From contig USQE01000002.1 of the NCBI GenBank assembly GCA_900556675.1, positions 1 through 23,616 on the forward strand: a stretch of DNA of 23,616 bases, in the 5' to 3' direction. A program made the translations under genes and the position numbers. The first letter of the stretch is position 1. Every line of letters starts with the position of its first letter. Source of the stretch: an uncultured Collinsella sp. (GTDB lineage: Bacteria; Actinomycetota; Coriobacteriia; Coriobacteriales; Coriobacteriaceae). This document shows, in pieces, positions 13,564 to 23,616 of this stretch. The notes beneath the pieces were generated by a model, which saw only the letters and a list, made by a program, of their open reading frames with translations, did no database searches and was not told the origin of the DNA.

Positions 13564-14205
13564 CTACATCATCCCGCCTGCTCCCAGCAGCGGGCCCAAT
13601 ATGGACAGAAGCAACGCCGGCAAGATGAGCGTGCCGGTGGGAATCAGCAGCTTGACCGGCGCGCGCTCAATCTCGCGCTCGACTGCAGCGCGATGGGCCG
13701 CGCGAATCTCGCGACTTTGAGCCGCCAGCGTCTCGGCAAGCGGGGCACCGAGGGCAAGCGCCTGCCCCGCTGTGATGGCAAAGGTCTCGAGCGCCCGCAC
13801 ATCCAGGTCGCGCGCGGCCGCCAGAAGCTCGTCCTCGCGCGTCCCCACGCCCACCTGCCACGCCATGCAGGCTCGCTCAAGGCGGATCGCCAACGTCGAT
13901 CGGCGATTGGCGCAAAAAACCTCAAGCGCCGCATCGAACGAAAGGCCGGCCGAAAGCCCCAGACGCACCACGTCGATCATCTCGGACACCTCGCCAAGCG
14001 ACACCTGCGCCGTACCACCCGTGCCGAGCATGCCCTTCAACCGTGTTACCAGGACATCGGTCACCGAGCGGGCAGCCGCGACAACCAGCAGCGCCTCGCA
14101 TTTGCAGACCTGGGCGATCTTGCATGCGTCCGCACGATTGAGCCCCGTCGCGACAAACACGCTGAGCGCGCACAGGCATGCCGCGACCCCGACCAGGGCG
14201 CTCAT
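13564..14205 (-). CDS. tadC: Flp pilus inner-membrane platform protein TadC
   Basis: One of the two GspF-type membrane proteins on which the CpaF ATPase acts. The 213 residues contain an N-terminal helix (2-20), a cytoplasmic four-helix GspF-like segment (about 65-170, with EMIDVVRLGLSAGLSFDAAL and AITAGQALALGAPLAETL) and a C-terminal hydrophobic helix (LLIPTGTLILPALLLSILG, about 188-206). It is shorter than proteobacterial TadC (about 300 residues), in line with compact actinobacterial versions. ATG 14205 overlaps the tadB stop as ATGA, with GTGGAG just upstream. Confidence 0.85.
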   Translation of the reverse strand: MSALVGVAACLCALSVFVATGLNRADACKIAQVCKCEALLVVAAARSVTDVLVTRLKGMLGTGGTAQVSLGEVSEMIDVVRLGLSAGLSFDAALEVFCANRRSTLAIRLERACMAWQVGVGTREDELLAAARDLDVRALETFAITAGQALALGAPLAETLAAQSREIRAAHRAAVEREIERAPVKLLIPTGTLILPALLLSILGPLLGAGGMM

Positions 14206-15128
14206 AGCTCCACCCGCATAATGCGCCGGATAACCACCAGCGCGACGGCGTTGAGGGCAAGTCCCAGTACCACGGCACCGGCACCCGCCGGCGTTGCAAG
14301 GCCGCGGCGAAAGTCGGCCGAAAGCAGCGCCAGCACCGCGCACATCCCCGCCGGCATCGCCGAGACCATGTGTGCCGACATACGAGCCTGCGATGTCTTG
14401 ACGTCCAAGCGGCGCTTGAGCTCAATGCGCTCCCCCACCATGCTCGACGCCTCGGACAACAGGTCGGCAAGCGGGGCACCGGTTCGCTGCGACACCTTAA
14501 GCGCCAAGGTGACAAGCGAAAGGCCGGGGGCATCGATACGGTCGAGTAGGTCATCCAACGCATCAGTCGCCGAGACGCCGCAGTCGATCGCCGCCGCCAC
14601 GCGCAAAAACTCGGTATGCACCGGCTCTTGCGCGTGAGTTCCCACAAACCTCATGCCCTGGGCCAGCGAATGACCCGAGGCGAGCGACATAGAGAGCGCC
14701 GTAAAGGCCTCGGGCATGGCTTCTTCCACATCGTGTTGCTCGCGGCGACGGTCGAAGGTGTCGCGAGCGGCACCTACGCCAAACGGTGCGAGCAGCCCCA
14801 GGACAAAGCCGATGGGCGACAGCGATACGACAGTCAGGGCAATGCCGCAGACACCACTCGACAGCAGTAAGCATGCCAGTCGCGCCTTGTCATCCTCGAT
14901 GACAAGGCCAACGCGATGTGCCGGAACCAGCGCCGCCCAGGAGTGGGCAATCTTTTTTAGCAGGTCGTTTTCTACCAACTCGCGCGGCAGCCTCTCGGCA
15001 ACCGACTCAAGCGCATGACTGACCAGCTCCGCCGGCGGCACGCGCGGCGCACGAGGCTCCGCCCCACACGCCACCGCGGCCGAAAGCCCCGTCAAGCCCC
15101 CTACGACGAGGGGCACAGCGACCTCCAT
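14202..15128 (-). CDS. tadB: Flp pilus inner-membrane platform protein TadB
   Basis: The partner GspF-family protein of TadC, 308 residues. It has an N-terminal helix, a central pair of hydrophobic helices (about 88-122, CLLLSSGVCGIALTVVSL), a GspF-type segment (EAMPEAFTALSMSLASGHSL then LDRIDAPGLSLVTLALKVSQ) and a C-terminal helix pair near 260-300. ATG 15128 overlaps the cpaF end by 28 bases and has a strong GAGGAGG ribosome site inside the cpaF coding sequence. The stop overlaps tadC (ATGA). Gene order tadZ-cpaF-tadB-tadC is the classic one. Confidence 0.87.
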   Translation of the reverse strand: MEVAVPLVVGGLTGLSAAVACGAEPRAPRVPPAELVSHALESVAERLPRELVENDLLKKIAHSWAALVPAHRVGLVIEDDKARLACLLLSSGVCGIALTVVSLSPIGFVLGLLAPFGVGAARDTFDRRREQHDVEEAMPEAFTALSMSLASGHSLAQGMRFVGTHAQEPVHTEFLRVAAAIDCGVSATDALDDLLDRIDAPGLSLVTLALKVSQRTGAPLADLLSEASSMVGERIELKRRLDVKTSQARMSAHMVSAMPAGMCAVLALLSADFRRGLATPAGAGAVVLGLALNAVALVVIRRIMRVEL

Positions 15129-16429
15129 TCGTCCACCTCCTCTTGTGTGAGCGTCCCCGACCGCAGGCCTTCTGCGATAAACGGCGGCTCGCGGTCAAGC
15201 GTCCAGGTGCGCTCGGCGGCATCGAAAGTCACATAGCGCTCGAGCTCTACGCCGCCCGACGCGGCGCGACGCACTCCCGAATACGAGGAGACGAAACGCC
15301 TGCCATCGGCGTGGCGCTCAGACATCACGATGCCGTCGAGCGCCATGGCAATCTGCTCCTCGATGAGCTCGCTCGGCAGATCGATGCCATAACGTGCAAG
15401 CAACGTCAGACGCACCACGGTCTCCTGTTCTGAGCCCGCATGAAGTGTGGTGAGCGACCCGTCGTGGCCCGTGTTCATGGCCTGCAACATGTCGCAGCAC
15501 TCCGCACCGCGCACCTCGCCCACCACGATGCGGTCGGGGCGCATGCGCAGGGCATTGGTCACCAGGTCGCGGATCGTCACCGCGCCCTCGCCCTCAATTG
15601 AAGCCTCGCGCGCCTCTAGACGCACCACGTGCGGATGATGCGCAAACTTGAGCTCGGCAGAGTCCTCGATCGTCACGATGCGCTCGCCGGTGGAAATCTC
15701 GCATGACAATGCGTTGAGCAGGGTGGTCTTACCAGATCCCGTGCCTCCCGCAACCGCCAGATCCTGTCGCAGCGACACCGCGCACGACAGCAGCTGCGCA
15801 TACCAAAGCGGCAGCGACCCCAGGCCCACAAGCTCGTCCAACGAACAGATGCGATCTGAGAACTTGCGAATGGTGAGGATTGGTCCATCAATCGCCACGG
15901 GCGGGATCACCGCGTTGACGCGATAGCCCGTCTTGAGGCGGGCGTTGACAATGGGGCTGCGCTCGTCGATGCGCCTGCCCAGCGGCGAGATGATGCGGTC
16001 GATGAGCACGCGGATCTGCTCGTCATCCTCAAATGCATGCTCGATGGGATATAAGACGCCGCCGCGTTCAAAGAAAGCCGAGCGGCAACCGTTGACCATG
16101 ATCTCGGTGACGGTGTCGTCCTCGATGAGCGGCTGCAGCGGGCCCAGGCCCACCACGTCGTCCAAGATCTCGTCGATGATGGTCTCGCGCTCGGGCGTCG
16201 CCAGGTCGCCCGGCTCCTCCACGTTGAGCGCCGCCTCCACCGCAGGACGCAATTCCGAGCGGGCGCGCGCCGGATCGATGTATGCGCTGATACGCGCCAC
16301 CTCGTCATAGCCCATGCGGTCCATCACGGCGCGCTTGGTGCGGCGCTTGACGGCACGGTGGCGCCCCGCATCAACAGGCGCCGCCGCCGCGGCCGCACCG
16401 GCTTCCTTAATCCTTGTTTGCAAGCTCAT
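15101..16429 (-). CDS. cpaF: Flp pilus assembly ATPase CpaF/TadA
   Basis: Secretion-type hexameric ATPase that powers Flp pilus polymerisation. In 442 residues: an N-terminal helical domain with [16 protein letters not shown]; the [20 protein letters not shown] segment (94-113); Walker [15 protein letters not shown] (228-241); the Asp box TIEDSAEL (253-260); the Walker B-like VGEVRGAE (303-310); and the His box [13 protein letters not shown] (321-333). All catalytic motifs are intact. ATG 16429 overlaps the tadZ stop as ATGA. I see no second CpaF-type ATPase, so the same enzyme must drive both extension and any retraction. Confidence 0.95.
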
Positions 16430-18072
16430 CGCGAATCACCCTCGCGCGACCAGGGAAGACGGATACGTGGGCGCTCGGTGCGCGTCGCGCGGTCGGTGAC
16501 CATGTCGCTCCAGGGACCGACGGCGCAGCCCAGCTCCACGAGCATCTCGCGCGTGGCTTCGCGCACGCTGGTGGCAAAAGCGCTGGTCTGGCCCACCGCC
16601 TCGTCAGCACGGCCGAATGCCATGAGCGCCGTCAAGTCCTGCCCGCCGTCGGCGATGCGAATCTTGGAGCTCAACGCGCAGGCAATCTCAAAGCGCATGG
16701 CGACATCCTCGTCGGCGCCGCGCGCGCCAAACCGGTTGAATACGGCGCTCATGCGCGTACGCGGCACGCCCACACGGCTCGCCAGCTCGATGACGCGCGC
16801 CGCGGACGTCGCAGACGACACCGATGGATCGCCCACGACCAGGCAGCGGTCGCTTGCCGCCACTGCGGCCGCCACGGCGTCGCCCCAAAAGACCGAGGTG
16901 TCGACAAGCACCACGTCGGATTCACGGCGCAAGACGTCGAGCAGCAGCTCCACCGGGCGCGCCATGAGCTCGGCCTGTTCGGGCGCGGCGACCGGGCCCC
17001 AAAGCGTGACGCCCGGGGCAACACGCATCGAGGCGGCCACGATGTCCGATTCGGCAAGTGCACCCGCAGCCGATGGCTCGATAAGCGTCGCCATGTCATG
17101 CGGGGCATCGGCACCCAACAGGTCGTAAAGGTTTCCAAACATCAGGTCCAAGTCGAGCACGGCGGCACGCAGGCCCAGCAGCGACGCCGCGTGCGCCATG
17201 GTGGCGACGATCGTCGACTTGCCGCAACCGCCCGAACCCGAGACGGCGCAGACAACCGGGGCTCGATGCGCCGGGGCGGCGGCATCCGCCGGCGGCGTGG
17301 GGGCAGGCGGCGCCGACACGGGCGGCAACGTTCCCGTCTCCCCGGCAGCGCTCATATGCTGCGCCCAAGCCGGCATGGCAGGTTGATCGGCCCGCGGGGC
17401 CGAGTCTGGAGACTTCACGGCCGCATCGGCACGAACATTGTCGTTCCCGGCAAGCCCCTCAACCTCGTCGAGCTCATCGACCAGGCTCACGCCATGCACG
17501 TATCCCATATCTACAGTCAGAAGCTCCTCGCCATACGGCACCGGCTCTCCGGCATCATCGTATGCAAGGGGATCCCGGGGGCACCGACCATGCTCGGCTT
17601 CCGCTTTTCCACAATCATCAACACGCGGGCCTCTTGTAGCGCGAGGCGCCCCGGGTTCCCTATCAACAAAAGCATCGGGCTCAATCGTCAGACACCGGTC
17701 GTAATCAACCGTTCCCTCGCCCGCGCGCCCGTTGCCGCATATGCTGCGCGCTGCGATAACCTCGGTCGCCCCCGCGCGAAACAGCCCCTCGATATCCGAA
17801 GGATCGAGCGTCTCTATCAGTACGACCACGCGGCTCACACGGCCCTCGGCCGTCAGGCGTGCAACAGTCTTTCGCACGTCTTCGGCATCGAACAGGGCTG
17901 CCGCGATAATCGCCGCCCCGCGACGCGACGGAAACGCCCGCGCCATGGACACCAGCCCATCCAGGTCGCCCACGCGAAGCACCTGCGCGCCCGCATCGCG
18001 ACCCTCGACTTCCCGCTGCAGCAATCCGTAATCACCACACGCGCAGCATGCAAGCCAGATCGCCTTCATCAC
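16426..18072 (-). CDS. tadZ: TadZ/CpaE-like MinD-family ATPase
   Basis: Pilus-locus localisation ATPase, 548 residues. An N-terminal receiver-like, non-phosphorylating region (1-115) is followed by a long low-complexity acidic and Pro/Ala-rich linker (about 120-270). The C-terminal MinD/ParA-type domain has a deviant Walker A GSGGCGKST (279-287), LDLDLMFGN (306-314) and VVLVDTSVF. TadZ places the Tad machine at the cell pole in studied species. GTG 18072 has a GGAGG site six bases upstream. ATG 18069, which overlaps the cpaB stop as TGATG, is the alternative. Linker length is well above that of typical TadZ (about 375-400 residues). Confidence 0.85.
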   Translation of the reverse strand: MMKAIWLACCACGDYGLLQREVEGRDAGAQVLRVGDLDGLVSMARAFPSRRGAAIIAAALFDAEDVRKTVARLTAEGRVSRVVVLIETLDPSDIEGLFRAGATEVIAARSICGNGRAGEGTVDYDRCLTIEPDAFVDREPGAPRATRGPRVDDCGKAEAEHGRCPRDPLAYDDAGEPVPYGEELLTVDMGYVHGVSLVDELDEVEGLAGNDNVRADAAVKSPDSAPRADQPAMPAWAQHMSAAGETGTLPPVSAPPAPTPPADAAAPAHRAPVVCAVSGSGGCGKSTIVATMAHAASLLGLRAAVLDLDLMFGNLYDLLGADAPHDMATLIEPSAAGALAESDIVAASMRVAPGVTLWGPVAAPEQAELMARPVELLLDVLRRESDVVLVDTSVFWGDAVAAAVAASDRCLVVGDPSVSSATSAARVIELASRVGVPRTRMSAVFNRFGARGADEDVAMRFEIACALSSKIRIADGGQDLTALMAFGRADEAVGQTSAFATSVREATREMLVELGCAVGPWSDMVTDRATRTERPRIRLPWSREGDSR

Positions 18073-18728
18073 TCGTCGCCTCCGCTCTTTTTGCCGCGCA
18101 CCGTGGCGGGAATCGTCAAACTGACCGTCCCCTTGCCCGAGGCCCCCAGCAATTCCTTAACGTCTTCGGGGTCGGCCGCCAGCGTCACCCATTCGATCTT
18201 GCCCTCGCGCGTGGCGCCGGCCACTTCGCTGGTATCGATCACGCGCGCGCCGCACAGCCGATCGGTCACGCCGTCCTTTTGCACGTACACGTCCACGTAG
18301 CTGCCCACGCCCGTGGCGCCCCCGACCGAATGCTCGGCATCGACCGCCACCGAAACGGCGACCTTGCCTTTGGGCACCTCGAACGTGTGGCTTTCGGCCT
18401 TGGTGTAGACATCGCAAATCACGGCATTTTTAGGGATGCGTGAGGTCGTCACGTCGCCGCGCACCTGGCGCAACTCGGTCGCCGCATCGCGCGGCAGTAG
18501 GCTCGCCAGCCATTCCTGGGTTATGACATTGGTCTCGTCAAGCGTCTCGCCCGCATCGATATCGCGTGCCGCGACGCACACCTCGACGCGATCGCCGCCA
18601 TACTTGGCCAGCGTCTCGGCCTGGGCCTGCTCAGCCCGCGAGCGGATCGACGATGCGTAGACCATGCAGAGCAACGCGGCGAGCACGCCCGCGATCAGAC
18701 TGATGGCGATGCGCTTGCTCTTGTTCAC
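18069..18728 (-). CDS. cpaB: Flp pilus assembly protein CpaB (SAF domain)
   Basis: First gene of the tad operon, 219 residues. One N-terminal transmembrane helix (about 6-25) is followed by an SAF domain (VEVCVAARDIDAGETLDETN, about 48-67) and a C-terminal CpaB/RcpC domain (KVAVSVAVDAEHSVGGATG, GSYVDVYVQ). It ends in a Lys-rich tail. In Gram-negative systems CpaB works with a secretin; here no secretin gene is present, in line with a single-membrane envelope, so it probably organises the pilus base. GTG 18728 is chosen because AGGAG lies five bases upstream; a TTG at 18743 is less likely. Confidence 0.85.
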   Translation of the reverse strand: MNKSKRIAISLIAGVLAALLCMVYASSIRSRAEQAQAETLAKYGGDRVEVCVAARDIDAGETLDETNVITQEWLASLLPRDAATELRQVRGDVTTSRIPKNAVICDVYTKAESHTFEVPKGKVAVSVAVDAEHSVGGATGVGSYVDVYVQKDGVTDRLCGARVIDTSEVAGATREGKIEWVTLAADPEDVKELLGASGKGTVSLTIPATVRGKKSGGDE

Positions 18729-18743
18729 GGCCGCTCCTCTCAA

Positions 18744-18980: not shown

Positions 18981-20165
18981 TTACAGATGGACATCGGGAT
19001 CGAGCATCTGCGCACTCACACGCATGGATGACGCCAGATTTTGGAACGTCTCCAGGCGCAGGCTGTCGATCTGCCCGGCATCCTCGGCCTCACGAACGGC
19101 GCAGCCCGGTTCGTGGGTATGCGTGCAGTCGCCAAACCGGCACGCACGCGACGCCTCGACGATCTCGGGAAACGCGCGTGCCAAGCCCCGCTCATGCCCC
19201 ACGAGCGGCAGGCTGCGAAGGCCCGGCGCGTCAGCAATAACGCCGGCTTCGCCCGGCAGCGCCACCATCACGCGCGCGACCGTGGTGTGACGACCCTGGT
19301 CATCGCGCTCACGCACGCCGCCGGTCGCCAATGTATCGTGACCCAGCAGCGCGTTGAGCAGCGTCGATTTGCCGGCACCCGACTCGCCCAGGATCATGGC
19401 GCAGCTCCCGGCGGGCACGCAGACGCGCACCTCGTCCAGGCCACGGCCCTCGGCAGAAGATGTCACGATTACGCGCACGTCCGGACCCACCAGGCGGTGT
19501 ACGCGGTCCAAATCGCGCTCGAGCTCATCGGTGTCGCAGCGGTCGGCCTTGGTGAGTACCACCACCGGCTCGGCATCGCAGTCGAGTGCCAGCACCAGCG
19601 AGCGCGCCACGCGGTCGAGCAGCACCTCGCCGGCGCCGAGCGCCTGCACGATCAGCACGCTATCCACGTTGGAGCAAAGCACCTGACGCTCACCGCGAGC
19701 GCGTCCGCGCCAGCGCTCAAAACTCGTGCGGCGCGGCAGCACGCACTCGATCACGCCCATGTCATGCCCGGGCGCACGGCGCACCGCCACGCGGTCGCCC
19801 ACGGCGGGCAGCAGAACCTCATCCTCGCCACGCGACTTGGCAAACCCCACGGCATGCTCGGCACGAAAGGTGTCATCGGCAGTCGCCACCAGCGGAAACC
19901 CACGATCCAGGCGCACCACGGCACCAAGCTGCATCTGCTCGGGCTCCTCGGCCCGAGCACAAAAATCATCGAAGGCAGCCCGCTGAGCATCATCGACCGG
20001 CAGATCGTCGAACGCCGGAACATCCTGCAGCGCATCGAGTCCCGGCACGCTTGCCAGCAGCTCCTCGGCGGACGCGGGAGCTTCGGTCGCAAGCTTCCGA
20101 CGACGATCGCGCTTAGCCCGCGCCCCCGTCGTCTTTTTCTTCGCCTTAGCCTTCGCCTTGCCCAC
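18981..20165 (-). CDS. rsgA: Ribosome small-subunit-dependent GTPase A
   Basis: Circularly permuted GTPase that helps mature the 30S subunit. In 394 residues: a Lys/Arg-rich N-terminal extension (GKAKAKAKKKTTGARAKRDR) typical of RNA contact, an OB-fold region, G4 TKAD (205-208), G1 GESGAGKSTLLNALLG (260-275), G2 HTT (293-295), G3 DAPG (312-315), and a zinc site (C342, C347, H349, C355). The G4-G1-G3 order shows the permutation. GTG 20165 is preferred because GGGAGG lies five bases upstream; no site precedes the longer in-frame start at 20279, which would overlap a terminator. Monocistronic, closed by 18929-18963. Confidence 0.93.
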   Translation of the reverse strand: MGKAKAKAKKKTTGARAKRDRRRKLATEAPASAEELLASVPGLDALQDVPAFDDLPVDDAQRAAFDDFCARAEEPEQMQLGAVVRLDRGFPLVATADDTFRAEHAVGFAKSRGEDEVLLPAVGDRVAVRRAPGHDMGVIECVLPRRTSFERWRGRARGERQVLCSNVDSVLIVQALGAGEVLLDRVARSLVLALDCDAEPVVVLTKADRCDTDELERDLDRVHRLVGPDVRVIVTSSAEGRGLDEVRVCVPAGSCAMILGESGAGKSTLLNALLGHDTLATGGVRERDDQGRHTTVARVMVALPGEAGVIADAPGLRSLPLVGHERGLARAFPEIVEASRACRFGDCTHTHEPGCAVREAEDAGQIDSLRLETFQNLASSMRVSAQMLDPDVHL

Positions 20166-20213
20166 AAGCGCCTCCCAGCACCACAAATCACAACTGAGCA
20201 GGTATTTTAAATC

Positions 20214-20247
20214 AAAAAGAGCTGGCCGGGCAAAGCCCGACCAGCTC
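20214..20247 (-). terminator. Terminator between the P-type ATPase and rsgA
   Basis: A 13-bp stem with one mismatch (20219-20231 with 20235-20247) and a 3-base loop is followed by five T residues on the minus strand. It is 166 bases beyond the ATPase stop, after the large inverted repeat. The rsgA ribosome site is only about 40 bases further on. Confidence 0.9.
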
Positions 20248-20306
20248 ACATACTTTCCCTCAGCCCTTTTCATCCGCACGGGAGAAAAGCCAGCAAGGAT
20301 ACCGCA

Positions 20307-20412: not shown

Positions 20413-23094
20413 TTACTCTTTCTCCACGGCGCGCATGATCGCCTTGTAGATCTCCATCAACGGAATGATCAGGAAGGCAAGGCCCAGGGCGGCGATAACG
20501 CCCTTGAGCTCAAGCGTCACGGGGCCAAAGAACATCTCGGCAAGCGTCGGCTGAACGGTCACGATAACCGTCAGCACCAGCGCCAGCGCGGCAGATGCCC
20601 ACAGCCACTTGTTCTGCTTCTTCATGCTAAACAGCGACGCACGACGGCTGCGCATATTGAAGCAGTGGAAGATCTCGACCATGTTGAGCGTGATGAAGGC
20701 CATCATCACGCCTTCCTCGTCGGCGTTGCCGGCGATCATATCGGCGATGTGGATGTAGCCCATGTCAAAGTACACGCCCACAAAGAAGCTCGCCAGCACC
20801 AGCACGGTGATGATCAAACCCTGGACCACACAGTCCAGGCCCATATTACCGGCAAAGACGCCGTCCTTGGCGTTGCGCGGCTTACGCTTCATGATGTCGC
20901 CCTCGGCATCCTCCATGCCCAGCGCGAGCGCGGGGAAGCAGTCGGTGACCAGGTTCACCCACAGCAGCTGCACCGGCTGGAAGATGGTAAAGCCGATGAG
21001 TGTGGCGATAAACACCGAGAACACCTCGGCAAGGTTAGCCGAAAGCAGGAACTGGATGACCTTGCGGATGTTGTCGTAGATGCGACGGCCCTCTTCGCAC
21101 GCACCGATGATGGTGGCGAAGTTGTCGTCGGCGAGCACCATGTCGGCGACGTTCTTGGTAACGTCGGTACCGGTGATGCCCATGCCCACGCCGATGTCGG
21201 CGCGCTTGATGGACGGGGCGTCGTTGACGCCGTCGCCCGTCATGGCCACGATCTGGTCGCGCGACTTCCAGGCCTCGACGATGCGGGTCTTGTGCTCGGG
21301 CTGGACGCGGGCGTACACGCCGTAGTCCTCGATGTGCGCGTCGAGCTCCTCGTCGCTCATGCGATCGAGGTCGGCACCGGTGATGGCATGGCTGCGATCG
21401 GCGACGATGCCCAGCTGCTTGGCAATGGCCACGGCGGTGTCGATATGGTCGCCCGTGATCATGACGGTGCGGATACCGGCATCGTGGGCCTCGCGGATGG
21501 CGTCGGCGACCTCGGGGCGGACAGGGTCGATCATGCCGGATAGGCCGCAGAAGACCAGGTCGTGCTCGAGCGCAGCGGGGCTGCAGTCGCTCGGGACCTC
21601 GGTGTAAGTGCGGCTTGCCAGCGCCAGCACGCGCAGGGCCTCGTCGGCCATGGCCTTGTTGGCAGCCACGAGCTCGGCGCGACGCTCCTCGGTCAGCGGG
21701 ACGACCTTTTCGCCCTCGTAGATATGGGTGCACAGGCCGATCACCACGTCGGGCGCGCCCTTGGTGTACTGCTCGTACTCGCCGTCCAGGGTCTCGACGA
21801 CCACGGACATCATCTTGCGGCCCGAGTCGAACGGGGCCTCGCCCACGCGCGGGTGCTCGGCAGTCAGGCCAGTGAGACCAGCCTTGCCGGCATCGTTGAC
21901 GAGCGCGCACTCAGTCGGCTCGCCCACGGCCTCGCCCAGCTCCTCGTCCCACTGGGCATCGGAGCACAGTGCCATACCGGCCAGGAACTTCTCCTTGGGC
22001 GCAGCGAGCTCGTGCTTGACGACGGTCATCTTGTTCTGGGTCAGGGTGCCGGTCTTGTCGGAGCAGATGGTCTGCGTGCAGCCAAGGGTCTCGACGGCAG
22101 AAAGCTTGCGGATGATCGCCTGGCGCTTGGCCATCTTGGTCACGCCGAGCGAAAGCACGATGGTCACGACGGCGACCAGGCCCTCGGGGATGGCGGCGAC
22201 GGCAAGCGAGACGGCGACCATAAAGGTGTCGAGCAGGGCAGTCGGGTCGGTGAGGACGTTGCCCACGCCGTGACGGATGATGTCGACGCCAAAGATGACG
22301 ACGCAGATGACGATAACCATAATGGTAAGGATGCGGCTGAGCTCGGCGAGCTTCACCTGCAGCGGCGTGAGCTCTTCCTTGGCCTCGGCCAGGGCGCCGG
22401 CAATCTTGCCCATCTCGGTGTTCATGCCGGTGCCGACCACGACGGCGCGACCACGGCCGTACACAACGGTGGAACCCATATAGCACATGTTCTTGCGGTC
22501 GCCGAGCGGCACGTCATCGGTGCCCGCGGCGAGCTCGATCACGTTGGTATGCTTCTCGACGGGCACGGACTCGCCGGTAAGGGCGGCCTCTTCGATCTTC
22601 ATCGTGGCGCTCTCGAGGACGCGGCAGTCGGCCGGAACGGAGTCGCCCGCCTCGAGCATGATCACGTCACCGGGCACGAGCTCGGCGCTCGGCAGGTGCA
22701 CGAGCTTGCCGTCGCGCAGTACCTTGGACTGCGCCGCGCTCATCTCCTGCAGGGCCTCGAGGGCTTCTTCGCTCTTGGCTTCCTGGACCACGCCCAGCAC
22801 CGAGTTGACGATAACGACGAACATGATAATGACGACATCGGCAAAGTCGGGCTCGCCCTTGACCATGCCCGTGAGCGCACTGATGACGGCGGCAACGATC
22901 AGCATGATGACCATGGGATCGGCCATCTGCTCAAAGAAACGCTTCCACAGCGGCGTCTTCTCGGCTTCCTCGAGCTTGTTAGGGCCTGTCTTAGCGAGGC
23001 GCGACGACGCCTCGTCGTCGCTCAGGCCGAGGTTCTCATCGACACCCTGGTCGCTGAGCACCTCCGCCGCGGCGGACAGGTATTCCTTTTGCAT
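20413..23094 (-). CDS. P-type calcium-transporting ATPase
   Basis: Type II P-type ATPase, 893 residues, in the cytoplasmic membrane, expected to export Ca2+. In order: cation ATPase N domain (1-75); TM1-2 (about 60-105); actuator with TGES (173-176); TM3-4 with PEGL (303-306); phosphorylation site CSDKTGTLTQNK (D346); nucleotide domain with KGAPDV; hinge TGDGVNDAP (619-627); TM5-10. Ca2+ ligands match SERCA: E304, N687 and E690 in SANLAE, and N714, T717 and D718 in WVNLVTDCFPALALG. A TM8 Glu (NMVEIF) is also present, so both sites look intact. ATG 23094 has AGGAGGGG seven bases upstream. It has its own promoter and a structured leader. Mn2+ export is a less likely alternative. Confidence 0.92.
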   Translation of the reverse strand: MQKEYLSAAAEVLSDQGVDENLGLSDDEASSRLAKTGPNKLEEAEKTPLWKRFFEQMADPMVIMLIVAAVISALTGMVKGEPDFADVVIIMFVVIVNSVLGVVQEAKSEEALEALQEMSAAQSKVLRDGKLVHLPSAELVPGDVIMLEAGDSVPADCRVLESATMKIEEAALTGESVPVEKHTNVIELAAGTDDVPLGDRKNMCYMGSTVVYGRGRAVVVGTGMNTEMGKIAGALAEAKEELTPLQVKLAELSRILTIMVIVICVVIFGVDIIRHGVGNVLTDPTALLDTFMVAVSLAVAAIPEGLVAVVTIVLSLGVTKMAKRQAIIRKLSAVETLGCTQTICSDKTGTLTQNKMTVVKHELAAPKEKFLAGMALCSDAQWDEELGEAVGEPTECALVNDAGKAGLTGLTAEHPRVGEAPFDSGRKMMSVVVETLDGEYEQYTKGAPDVVIGLCTHIYEGEKVVPLTEERRAELVAANKAMADEALRVLALASRTYTEVPSDCSPAALEHDLVFCGLSGMIDPVRPEVADAIREAHDAGIRTVMITGDHIDTAVAIAKQLGIVADRSHAITGADLDRMSDEELDAHIEDYGVYARVQPEHKTRIVEAWKSRDQIVAMTGDGVNDAPSIKRADIGVGMGITGTDVTKNVADMVLADDNFATIIGACEEGRRIYDNIRKVIQFLLSANLAEVFSVFIATLIGFTIFQPVQLLWVNLVTDCFPALALGMEDAEGDIMKRKPRNAKDGVFAGNMGLDCVVQGLIITVLVLASFFVGVYFDMGYIHIADMIAGNADEEGVMMAFITLNMVEIFHCFNMRSRRASLFSMKKQNKWLWASAALALVLTVIVTVQPTLAEMFFGPVTLELKGVIAALGLAFLIIPLMEIYKAIMRAVEKE

Positions 23095-23101
23095 ATAGAG
23101 T

Positions 23102-23206
23102 CCCCTCCTGGGATTCGGGCCACTCAGCAGATTGATGCCCGATCATAATTCCCAGGAGAAGGGCAAGGGCTCATCAAGGCTGCCGTGCTGAGCGGCAGTT
23201 GATAGT
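23102..23206 (-). ncRNA. Candidate cis-regulatory leader RNA of the P-type ATPase
   Basis: The predicted transcript starts near 23206. Hairpin 1 (23173-23203) has stem ATCAA-CTGCCG/CGGCAG-CC-TTGAT and a 7-nt loop, CTCAGCA on the minus strand. Hairpin 2 (23106-23157) has stem TCCTGGGA/TCCCAGGA with an inner CGGGC/GCCCG. Its loop contains TGCTGAG (23123-23129), perfectly complementary to the whole loop of hairpin 1 (23186-23192), which would allow a kissing interaction. The 3' arm of hairpin 2 includes the first AGGA of the AGGAGGGG ribosome site, so folding should restrict translation. I do not recognise a known riboswitch class. Confidence 0.55.
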
Positions 23207-23212
23207 GGAGCT

Positions 23213-23242
23213 ATGGTACCCCAAAGCAACGCGTCTAGCCAA
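23213..23242 (-). promoter_or_regulatory. Promoter of the P-type ATPase
   Basis: TTGGCT (23237-23242) and TACCAT (23213-23218) are 18 bases apart on the minus strand. The -10 fits the TANNNT pattern. The predicted start, about seven bases further at 23206, lies three bases before the first leader hairpin. Confidence 0.55.
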
Positions 23243-23489
23243 AACAATCCATTTGGAAATATGGTCCATAAGCAACGGTGCAGGCCGTGTGATGCTCAAC
23301 ATTGATAAAACGTTTTTTCTTCGGCGCATCATCAAACTGAAATATCGCCCAGATAGCAGCGGTTAGAACGGTTGGTAAAGTTTTTGCATATACCGTTTTT
23401 CCGCAAAAAATGAACTTCTAATTCGGCATACGGTCGATTTTTTGGGGTATTCGGTCGCCATTTCGTTATAATCAACTCAGTTTTATCTT
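23243..23489. other. Intergenic region with repeats, no gene seen
   Basis: I see no convincing gene in this stretch, which is poorer in GC than the genes to its left. It has an inverted repeat TTTTTGC/GCAAAAA (23381-23387 with 23403-23409) and two CGGTCG copies about 21 bases apart (23431 and 23452). TATAAT lies on the plus strand (23467-23472), but no plus-strand gene follows within the window. Short frames on the minus strand lack ribosome sites. Confidence 0.5.
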
Positions 23490-23506
23490 TTACATTAAAT
23501 CCTCCT
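23490..23506 (-). promoter_or_regulatory. Shine-Dalgarno with ATG-TAA start-stop element
   Basis: A perfect AGGAGG (23501-23506) is followed, five bases later, by ATG (23493-23495) and immediately by TAA (23490-23492). It may be the remains of a gene start broken by a base change, because the frame one base over from the stop continues for about 50 codons. It could instead be a regulatory start-stop site. Confidence 0.4.
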
Positions 23507-23538
23507 ATATAAAAAACTAATAAAAAATATAATATAAC

Positions 23539-23616
23539 TTACGTTCCAAAAACGAATTCTAATAGAAAAAGCAACAGTTCATATAATGTAAATGGTGGTA
23601 CTATTATAGAAGTTGC
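23539..23616 (-). CDS. Possible C-terminal end of a gene running off the right edge
   Basis: From the window edge one minus-strand frame stays open for 25 codons to TAA at 23539 and encodes a hydrophobic tail (VPPFTLYELLLFLLEFVFGT). The other two frames close earlier. The region is about 24% GC, unlike the rest of the window, so the adjacent locus may be horizontally acquired, such as a membrane protein gene in a surface-polysaccharide cluster. The stretch is too short to identify and could be chance in AT-rich DNA. Confidence 0.3.
   Translation of the reverse strand, partial: ATSIIVPPFTLYELLLFLLEFVFGT

Follow-up and report, generated by a model that had tools for sequence, protein, structure and literature searches.

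The metal riboswitch is the nearest known kind of RNA to the leader described here. The yybP-ykoY (manganese) riboswitches (RF00080) turn export genes on, and in streptococci and lactic acid bacteria they stand before P-ATPases of the Ca2+/Mn2+ type; the M-box (Mg2+) and NiCo riboswitches are metal-sensing RNAs that control transporters and have larger or multi-junction architectures. The Li+ (nhaA-I/II) riboswitches, a recently recognized orphan class, are ion-responsive leaders of ion transporters; they and the Na+ riboswitches differ from the new RNA in gene and architecture. We know of no Ca2+-sensing riboswitch class. According to parts of PMC9337991, the Na+ (DUF1646) riboswitch is likewise an ion-responsive transporter leader of a recently recognized orphan class, and a 2022 review of riboswitch discovery regards K+, Ca2+ and Zn2+ as ions for which undiscovered classes may well exist, calling them strong candidates (PMC10043782).

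Here we report a leader RNA in front of a Ca2+-type P-ATPase gene, located near the right end of the window (the whole stretch of DNA that was analysed, 23,616 nucleotides). It is probably an orphan translational ON riboswitch-like RNA which adopts two mutually exclusive folds in response to the cation exported by the pump, Ca2+ being the leading guess for this ligand. Its features are listed in Table 1. Like yybP-ykoY it would be a metal riboswitch preceding a Ca2+/Mn2+-type P-ATPase; unlike yybP-ykoY it forms one interrupted rod that contains a large asymmetric loop, and it serves one type of gene.

Table 1. Features of the ATPase locus and its leader RNA (window positions)
Feature	Position	Strand	Remarks
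P-type ATPase, Ca2+-transporting type	20413..23094	minus	893 aa, ATG at 23094; regulated gene
Structured leader RNA	about 23206-23095	minus	5′ of the Ca2+-type P-ATPase 20413-23094
Weak −35-like TTGGCT	23237..23242	minus	18-nt spacer to −10; from sequence only
−10 element TACCAT	23213..23218	minus	predicted transcript start about 23206; conserved across species
Alternative hairpin H1 (hairpin 1 of the earlier note plus outer pairs)	23172..23204	minus	by folding; incompatible with P1 and P2; belongs to the predicted OFF state
P1 5′ strand GCCGCTCAGCA	23186..23196	minus	two-sided changes in 10/11 P1 pairs (MAFFT alignment)
P1 3′ strand TGCTGAGTGGC	23119..23129	minus	same basis as P1 5′ strand
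P1b GG	23183..23184	minus	pairs with TC 23130-23131; RNAalifold and model-fitted alignment
P2 5′ strand TTGATG	23172..23177	minus	3′ strand CATCAA 23132-23137
Conserved 2-nt bulge (AG/GG) separating P2 from P3	23170..23171	minus	alignment
P3 5′ strand CCC	23167..23169	minus	3′ strand GGG 23138-23140; invariant in both alignments, hence no covariation information
Conserved UUG, 5′ side of asymmetric internal loop	23164..23166	minus	invariant in 41-leader alignment
P4 5′ strand CCC	23161..23163	minus	3′ strand GGG 23151-23153
AAUUAUGAUC, 3′ side of internal loop, putative ligand pocket	23141..23150	minus	conservation
Anti-Shine-Dalgarno strand CTTCTCCTGGGA, overlapping P4	23150..23161	minus	12 pairs with 23102-23113; covaries with SD context
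SD region TCCCAGGAGGGG	23102..23113	minus	AGGAGG at 23104-23109

That a Ca2+ ATPase lies downstream, as the earlier note had claimed, is supported by the closest solved relative of the encoded pump, the Listeria Ca2+ ATPase lmo0841 (6zhf; E 2.6e-204), which we take to be LMCA1. The pump scores 638 bits with the PMR1-type, 617 with the SERCA-type and 481 with the PMCA-type NCBIfam model, and thus falls below all three equivalog cut-offs (798, 703 and 507 respectively). In its M5, an Asn and a Glu stand at the positions of Asn and Ala in lmo0841, the Glu presumably occupying a SERCA Ca2+ ligand position, and its M6 carries N-L-V-T-D, residues that we likewise take to correspond to SERCA Ca2+ ligands. 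An Asn apparently replaces the SERCA M8 glutamate, which makes any assignment of the pump's ion site tentative. On the same strand, the next long frame downstream of the ATPase encodes an RsgA-like GTPase (18981-20279), whose match begins only at residue 160, such that the true start codon may be further in. What looks like a Tad/Flp pilus cluster occupies the minus strand at 14202-18743; its genes encode a T2SSF protein, a MinD-like ATPase, CpaB and, with a match below cut-off, a TadA-type ATPase. The right end of the window (23421-23616) is by eye AT-rich relative to the GC-rich genes; it may represent inserted DNA, or intergenic sequence that is rich in AT.

To follow the leader across species, we searched genome contigs for the N-terminus of the ATPase and confirmed 102 relatives. 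The core CCCTTGCC...A(A/G)TTANNANCGGG was present upstream of the ATPase without exception in the best 80 of these 102 loci (80/80), which include Collinsella, Olsenella, Thermophilibacter and Enorma among other genera; further upstream of the leader, the DNA differs among species (by eye). The core was found in 176/176 ATPase-linked loci overall, 80 of them gathered via the protein, with some genomes in both sets and one place doubled. A covariance model, R1, matched 124/247 genomes of the order, 105/246 of the class and 24/396 of the phylum (these sets overlap). These scans yielded 133 distinct match places, where the identical places L145/L207 and L185/L209 are each counted once. Of the 97 of these 133 places that were examined, 95 lie directly upstream of this ATPase. 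The other two were judged to be chance matches: G270 (class scan, E 0.009) has no ATPase within 5,001 bases, and G396 (phylum scan, E 7e-4) has none within 2,500 bases and lies opposite a 292-codon frame. Within the window's phylum, credible R1 matches are limited to two kinship families, f1 and f5, which the data suggest are the Coriobacteriaceae and Atopobiaceae.

Seven genomes carry two copies of the RNA, and in six of these an ATPase follows both leaders (one ATPase of G014 is cut at a contig end). The two leader copies of G073 are on separate contigs. We also inspected four genomes of the two families that gave no match. G219 carries a divergent leader that was missed by the genome-wide scans, whose stricter filters lose weak matches, and in G005 the ATPase gene is represented by its C-terminal part alone, at a contig end. 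The remaining two, G097 and G104 of one genus, have ATPase orthologues (L214 and L215; 67-68% identical) whose start codons have no leader RNA within 200 bases upstream; this natural loss of the leader could serve as a control.

By eye, seven ATPase leaders of the Collinsella group (L094, L107, L151, L152, L157, L171 and L186) form a type B, with the loop AAUUAAGAUC. Their P2 pairing is apparently gone, a local near-palindrome such as GCCTCTAGAGGC standing in its place, and their SD contexts follow the pattern of CCCAAGAGGGG, CCCAAAAGGGG or CCCATAAGGGG. Most type B genomes have a second ATPase nearby that is preceded by an ordinary leader, and type B is possibly a variant with a different ion preference. 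Another leader, L156 (G210), retains P1, P2-like and SD parts around a core altered to CCCTCGCCCC...GGGGACACGTACGTGGGC; it is a decaying or altered copy of the RNA.

As a single sequence, the window's leader folds moderately more stably than its shuffles (z = −2.15; 4/200 shuffles as good), and structure was therefore judged by comparison. Specifically, we aligned 41 of 53 distinct leaders with MAFFT (40 distinct rows), excluding 12 without the P1 5′ strand. The alignment has 24 invariant columns, and the P1-P4 fold leaves 90.4% of its cells paired, as compared with 25-46% for slid partners. Two-sided changes occur in 13/23 pairs. Ten of these are in P1, the 11-bp long-range helix (one G-U pair) that closes P2, P3 and P4, and the compensatory changes on which the earlier note had made a structured leader depend are thereby present. 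In P2, the column pair 30-70 reads U-A in 20, C-G in 17 and A-U in 1 of the 40 distinct rows. Likewise, RNAalifold, to which no structure was supplied, recovered P1b and seven of the pairs in P1; it also gave most of P2-P4, placing P4 one column off. A model-fitted alignment of 100 of 110 distinct leaders (10 near-duplicates dropped), which leans towards the model, gave 91.4% paired versus 28-47% for slid partners and two-sided changes in 19/25 pairs, including every one of the 13 outer-helix pairs (P1 and P1b); in P4, two pairs each show one C-G to U-G change. In these alignments P1 and P2 are shown to be supported by covariation, and P3 and P4, which hardly vary, by conservation. By such comparative evidence the leader is a conserved structured RNA.

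The helices P1-P4 enclose an almost invariant asymmetric loop, UUG/AAUUANNAUC. Its 3′ side has the form AAUUAUGAUC in 35/58 distinct leaders, the other 23 varying mainly at loop positions six and seven and seldom at positions two and nine. In several members the match to the model spans no more than 42-44 nt.

The position of the −10 element follows that of the RNA. In the earlier note a −10/−35 pair put the transcript start right before hairpin 1; such a pair is present in the window, and a start at this place is likely. A −10 element of the form TANNWT is present in 104/110 distinct leaders, with GG directly 5′ of it in 79 of the 104. Its distance to the core CCC is 42-48 nt in 37/41 leaders with P1 (38, 40, 60 and none in the remaining four) and 15-18 nt in 11/12 leaders without P1 (24 nt in the remaining one). 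The start site therefore appears, from these spacings, to shift with the 5′ edge of the RNA. A generic promoter scan gave a single plus-strand match and did not include the conserved −10 in its output.

We next consider how the rod could control translation. The 8-bp stem over the ribosome site that the earlier note had described, CTCCTGGG/CCCAGGAG (23158-23151 with 23112-23105), is present; it was said to cover half of the site, but with flanking pairs it can reach 12 bp, two further G-U pairs included, and then covers the whole of AGGAGGGG. Put differently, the window's P4 region CUUCUCCUGGGA is able to pair with UCCCAGGAGGGG. This potential recurs among relatives. CCTGG occurs in P4 in 83/108 distinct anti-SD/SD combinations, and CCAGG at the SD in 75 of these 83 and in 5 of the 25 combinations without P4 CCTGG. 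Cognate anti-SD/SD duplexes have a mean energy of −22.1 kcal/mol versus −21.1 kcal/mol when permuted (sd 0.17), a control that keeps phylogeny in place, and 0/2000 permutations were as low. Per-leader energies, which cover only the 25 combinations without CCTGG, show the cognate duplex to be weaker than the average of its own P4 over all SDs in 7/25, and weaker than the average of its own SD over all P4s in 18/25. In L104 and L149, P4 CTCCCGGGG is accompanied by SD CCCCGGGAGG, changes that look compensatory at the sequence level. Three leaders of one genus (L154, L161 and L164) have a P4 without CTCCT; here the AAGGAGG SD is preceded by GCCCGATC, the exact complement of core GATCGGGC or GATCGGG (the core loop/P3 strand), and to judge by their letters these leaders apparently join a different expression platform to the common core.

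Folding calculations point in the same direction. The unconstrained fold of the window's leader (−54.5 kcal/mol) buries the SD, whereas the enforced rod (−46.8 kcal/mol) leaves it open, the unpaired probability rising from ≤ 0.01 to 0.92-1.0 at five of six SD positions. When P3 and P4 were enforced in 108 of the 110 leaders, mean SD accessibility rose from 0.14 to 0.59; the gain exceeded 0.1 in 90/108 leaders, accessibility dropped in 3/108, and it was above 0.5 in 67/108 and not in the other 41. In truncated window transcripts, P1 is part of the best fold until the SD emerges, whereupon the two-hairpin fold wins. Before the SD is made, the full rod lies 1.4 kcal/mol above the best fold; the two have P1 and P4 in common but differ in part of P2 and P3. 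After transcription of the SD, the rod is about 8 kcal/mol above OFF and would thus persist only with the help of a ligand or of kinetics, as expected of a translational switch that its ligand holds in the ON state. The two-hairpin fold is thus modelled as an alternative state, probably OFF, and switching between the two states is predicted. The notion of a structured leader able to hide the ribosome site, put forward in the earlier note, is borne out by both comparison and folding. As expected of a riboswitch, the fold is conserved in 5′ leaders of related genes, and by computation the expression platform is mutually exclusive with the aptamer fold, if not clear-cut in every leader.

In the mechanism that we propose, the ON fold would be the P1-P4 rod built around the UUG/AAUUANNAUC loop, with the ribosome site free. 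In the OFF fold, the 3′ strand of P4 (CUCCUGGG) would pair with CCCAGGAG and hide the ribosome site, while in the window hairpin 1 would trap the 5′ strands of P1 and P2. Across the distinct leaders, the P2 5′ strand pairs upstream at a probability > 0.5 in 51/110 leaders. Transcription finishes the sequence of the rod before it reaches the ribosome site; a rod-stabilizing ligand would therefore keep translation on, and the RNA would relax to OFF when the ligand is missing. Ligand binding, the ON direction and the identity of the ion are what we infer here. The ligand is most likely the cation removed by the pump, because the gene encodes an ATPase of cation-export type; Ca2+ is our leading guess and Mn2+ its main rival.

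No catalogued RNA family accounts for the leader. At gathering score, Rfam 15 (4227 families) returned two tRNAs only for the whole window. Searches at E up to 10 (22900-23616) gave sR45 and mir-500, and at E up to 1 (18 related loci) mir-2041 (L052, both strands), IMPDH (L094) and sR5 (L189). All six sub-threshold rows lie outside the leaders, no riboswitch family overlaps the leader in the window or the 18 loci, and RF00080 has no match in any of them, consistent with the view in the earlier note that the layout is unlike a known class. The Na+ and Li+ riboswitches, and likewise M-box and NiCo, are set apart from the new RNA by this lack of an Rfam match. A large 2021 list of candidate structured RNAs from the human microbiome (PMC8040213) includes a Collinsella RNA; the one named in the main text lies in front of L7/L12, and neither 'ATPase' nor 'calcium' appears in that text, although the supplementary list may include our leader. 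The main texts of PMC11109978 and PMC8632094 mention no Collinsella, Coriobacteri-, Olsenella, Atopobium or P-type ATPase. A literature search, with supplements and most subscription papers outside its coverage, found no Ca2+ riboswitch and no paper joining riboswitch, Coriobacteria, ATPase and Collinsella.

Which ion would be sensed is the question on which the strongest rival turns. The RNA could be a sensor of Mn2+ (or another transition metal), an analogue of yybP-ykoY, with the ATPase exporting Mn2+ or several ions. PMR1-type pumps move both Ca2+ and Mn2+, and the PMR1-type model is the best NCBIfam match of the pump; moreover, yybP-ykoY is over cut-off in 0/39 relatives (24/24 of the window's genus are without it; G050 reaches 22 bits, below cut-off), so its role may be vacant. 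Against this, an MntP-family Mn exporter is present in 33/39 relatives (22/24 of the same genus), yet 95/95 credible matches are at the ATPase, and the pump has the M5 Glu where lmo0841 has Ala. A Na+/Ca2+-type exchanger is over the Pfam cut-off in 3/39 relatives (2/24 in the genus). With 0/95 credible examined matches away from the ATPase, the single gene partner of the RNA gives little ligand information. Collectively, the MntP, exchanger, gene-association and M5/M6 data favour Ca2+ over Mn2+ and do not decide the matter; an Mn2+ sensor seems unlikely to us, although it is the rival that survives best.

The leader might instead respond to something other than an ion, such as a protein or small RNA, a metabolite or temperature. 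Its single-stranded letters, which hardly vary, could be recognized by a protein or by another RNA, its narrow host range would suit a lineage-specific trans-factor, and an ion ligand is putative. However, constant asymmetric loop letters amid changing P1 and P2 are aptamer-like, several members match the model over 42-44 nt only, and a thermometer would have no need of an invariant loop. We consider a reader of this kind improbable.

The structure first suggested for this leader, two stable independent hairpins whose kissing loops modulate the SD stem, fares much worse. The underlying observation is accurate: on the minus strand, the heptamer CTCAGCA (23192-23186) has a perfect complement in TGCTGAG (23129-23123), about 0.002 such matches being expected in uniform random letters. 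The minimum-energy structure computed for the full leader also contains both hairpins, and hairpin 1 exceeds shuffles in cells paired (66.4% versus 62.4%; 0/500 as high) and in covariation score (0.223 versus 0.166; 3/500 as high), an excess that relatedness alone can produce, as our shuffle and permutation controls leave it in place. However, the complement reaches 11 bp, into the stem of hairpin 1, and covaries as a helix, P1, that is incompatible with this hairpin; 12/53 distinct leaders are without the P1 5′ strand altogether (by eye); and two-sided changes in hairpin 1 are not in excess (2 pairs versus a shuffle mean of 2.4; 5 cells versus 3.9). Such a hairpin is therefore common, and selection for it is not shown. 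A kissing contact between independent hairpins is thus highly improbable; in our model the two hairpins are most likely one of two mutually exclusive states, the OFF state, and the switch idea of the earlier note is correct in kind and wrong in anatomy. Finally, control by an upstream leader peptide starting at the ATG inside P2 can be dismissed almost entirely: in the window ATGAGCCCTTGC... is open to a TGA (a 16-codon frame, by eye), but neither start codon nor frame is conserved as an attenuator would have it, since ACG, ACA or GTG replaces the ATG in many relatives and the core varies from 28 to 35 nt among species, which breaks any frame.

This leaves an ion-responsive ON switch as the preferred reading of the leader. 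Taken one step further, the RNA may be the first natural Ca2+ riboswitch, in which the putative UUG/AAUUANNAUC pocket binds Ca2+ and turns on translation of a Ca2+-export ATPase, with a matched core of 42-44 nt in the smallest forms; we offer this tentatively, at somewhat less than even confidence. If the Ca2+ reading is true, the type B leaders of genomes with two ATPases could be tuned to another ion. The RNA is directly testable, given its aptamer-like core, readable switch, single Ca2+-type pump target and small size. In the window's genus, 22/24 genomes are without a Na+/Ca2+-type exchanger over the Pfam cut-off and 24/24 without the Mn2+ riboswitch, and the RNA would bear on ion sensing in gut Actinomycetota.
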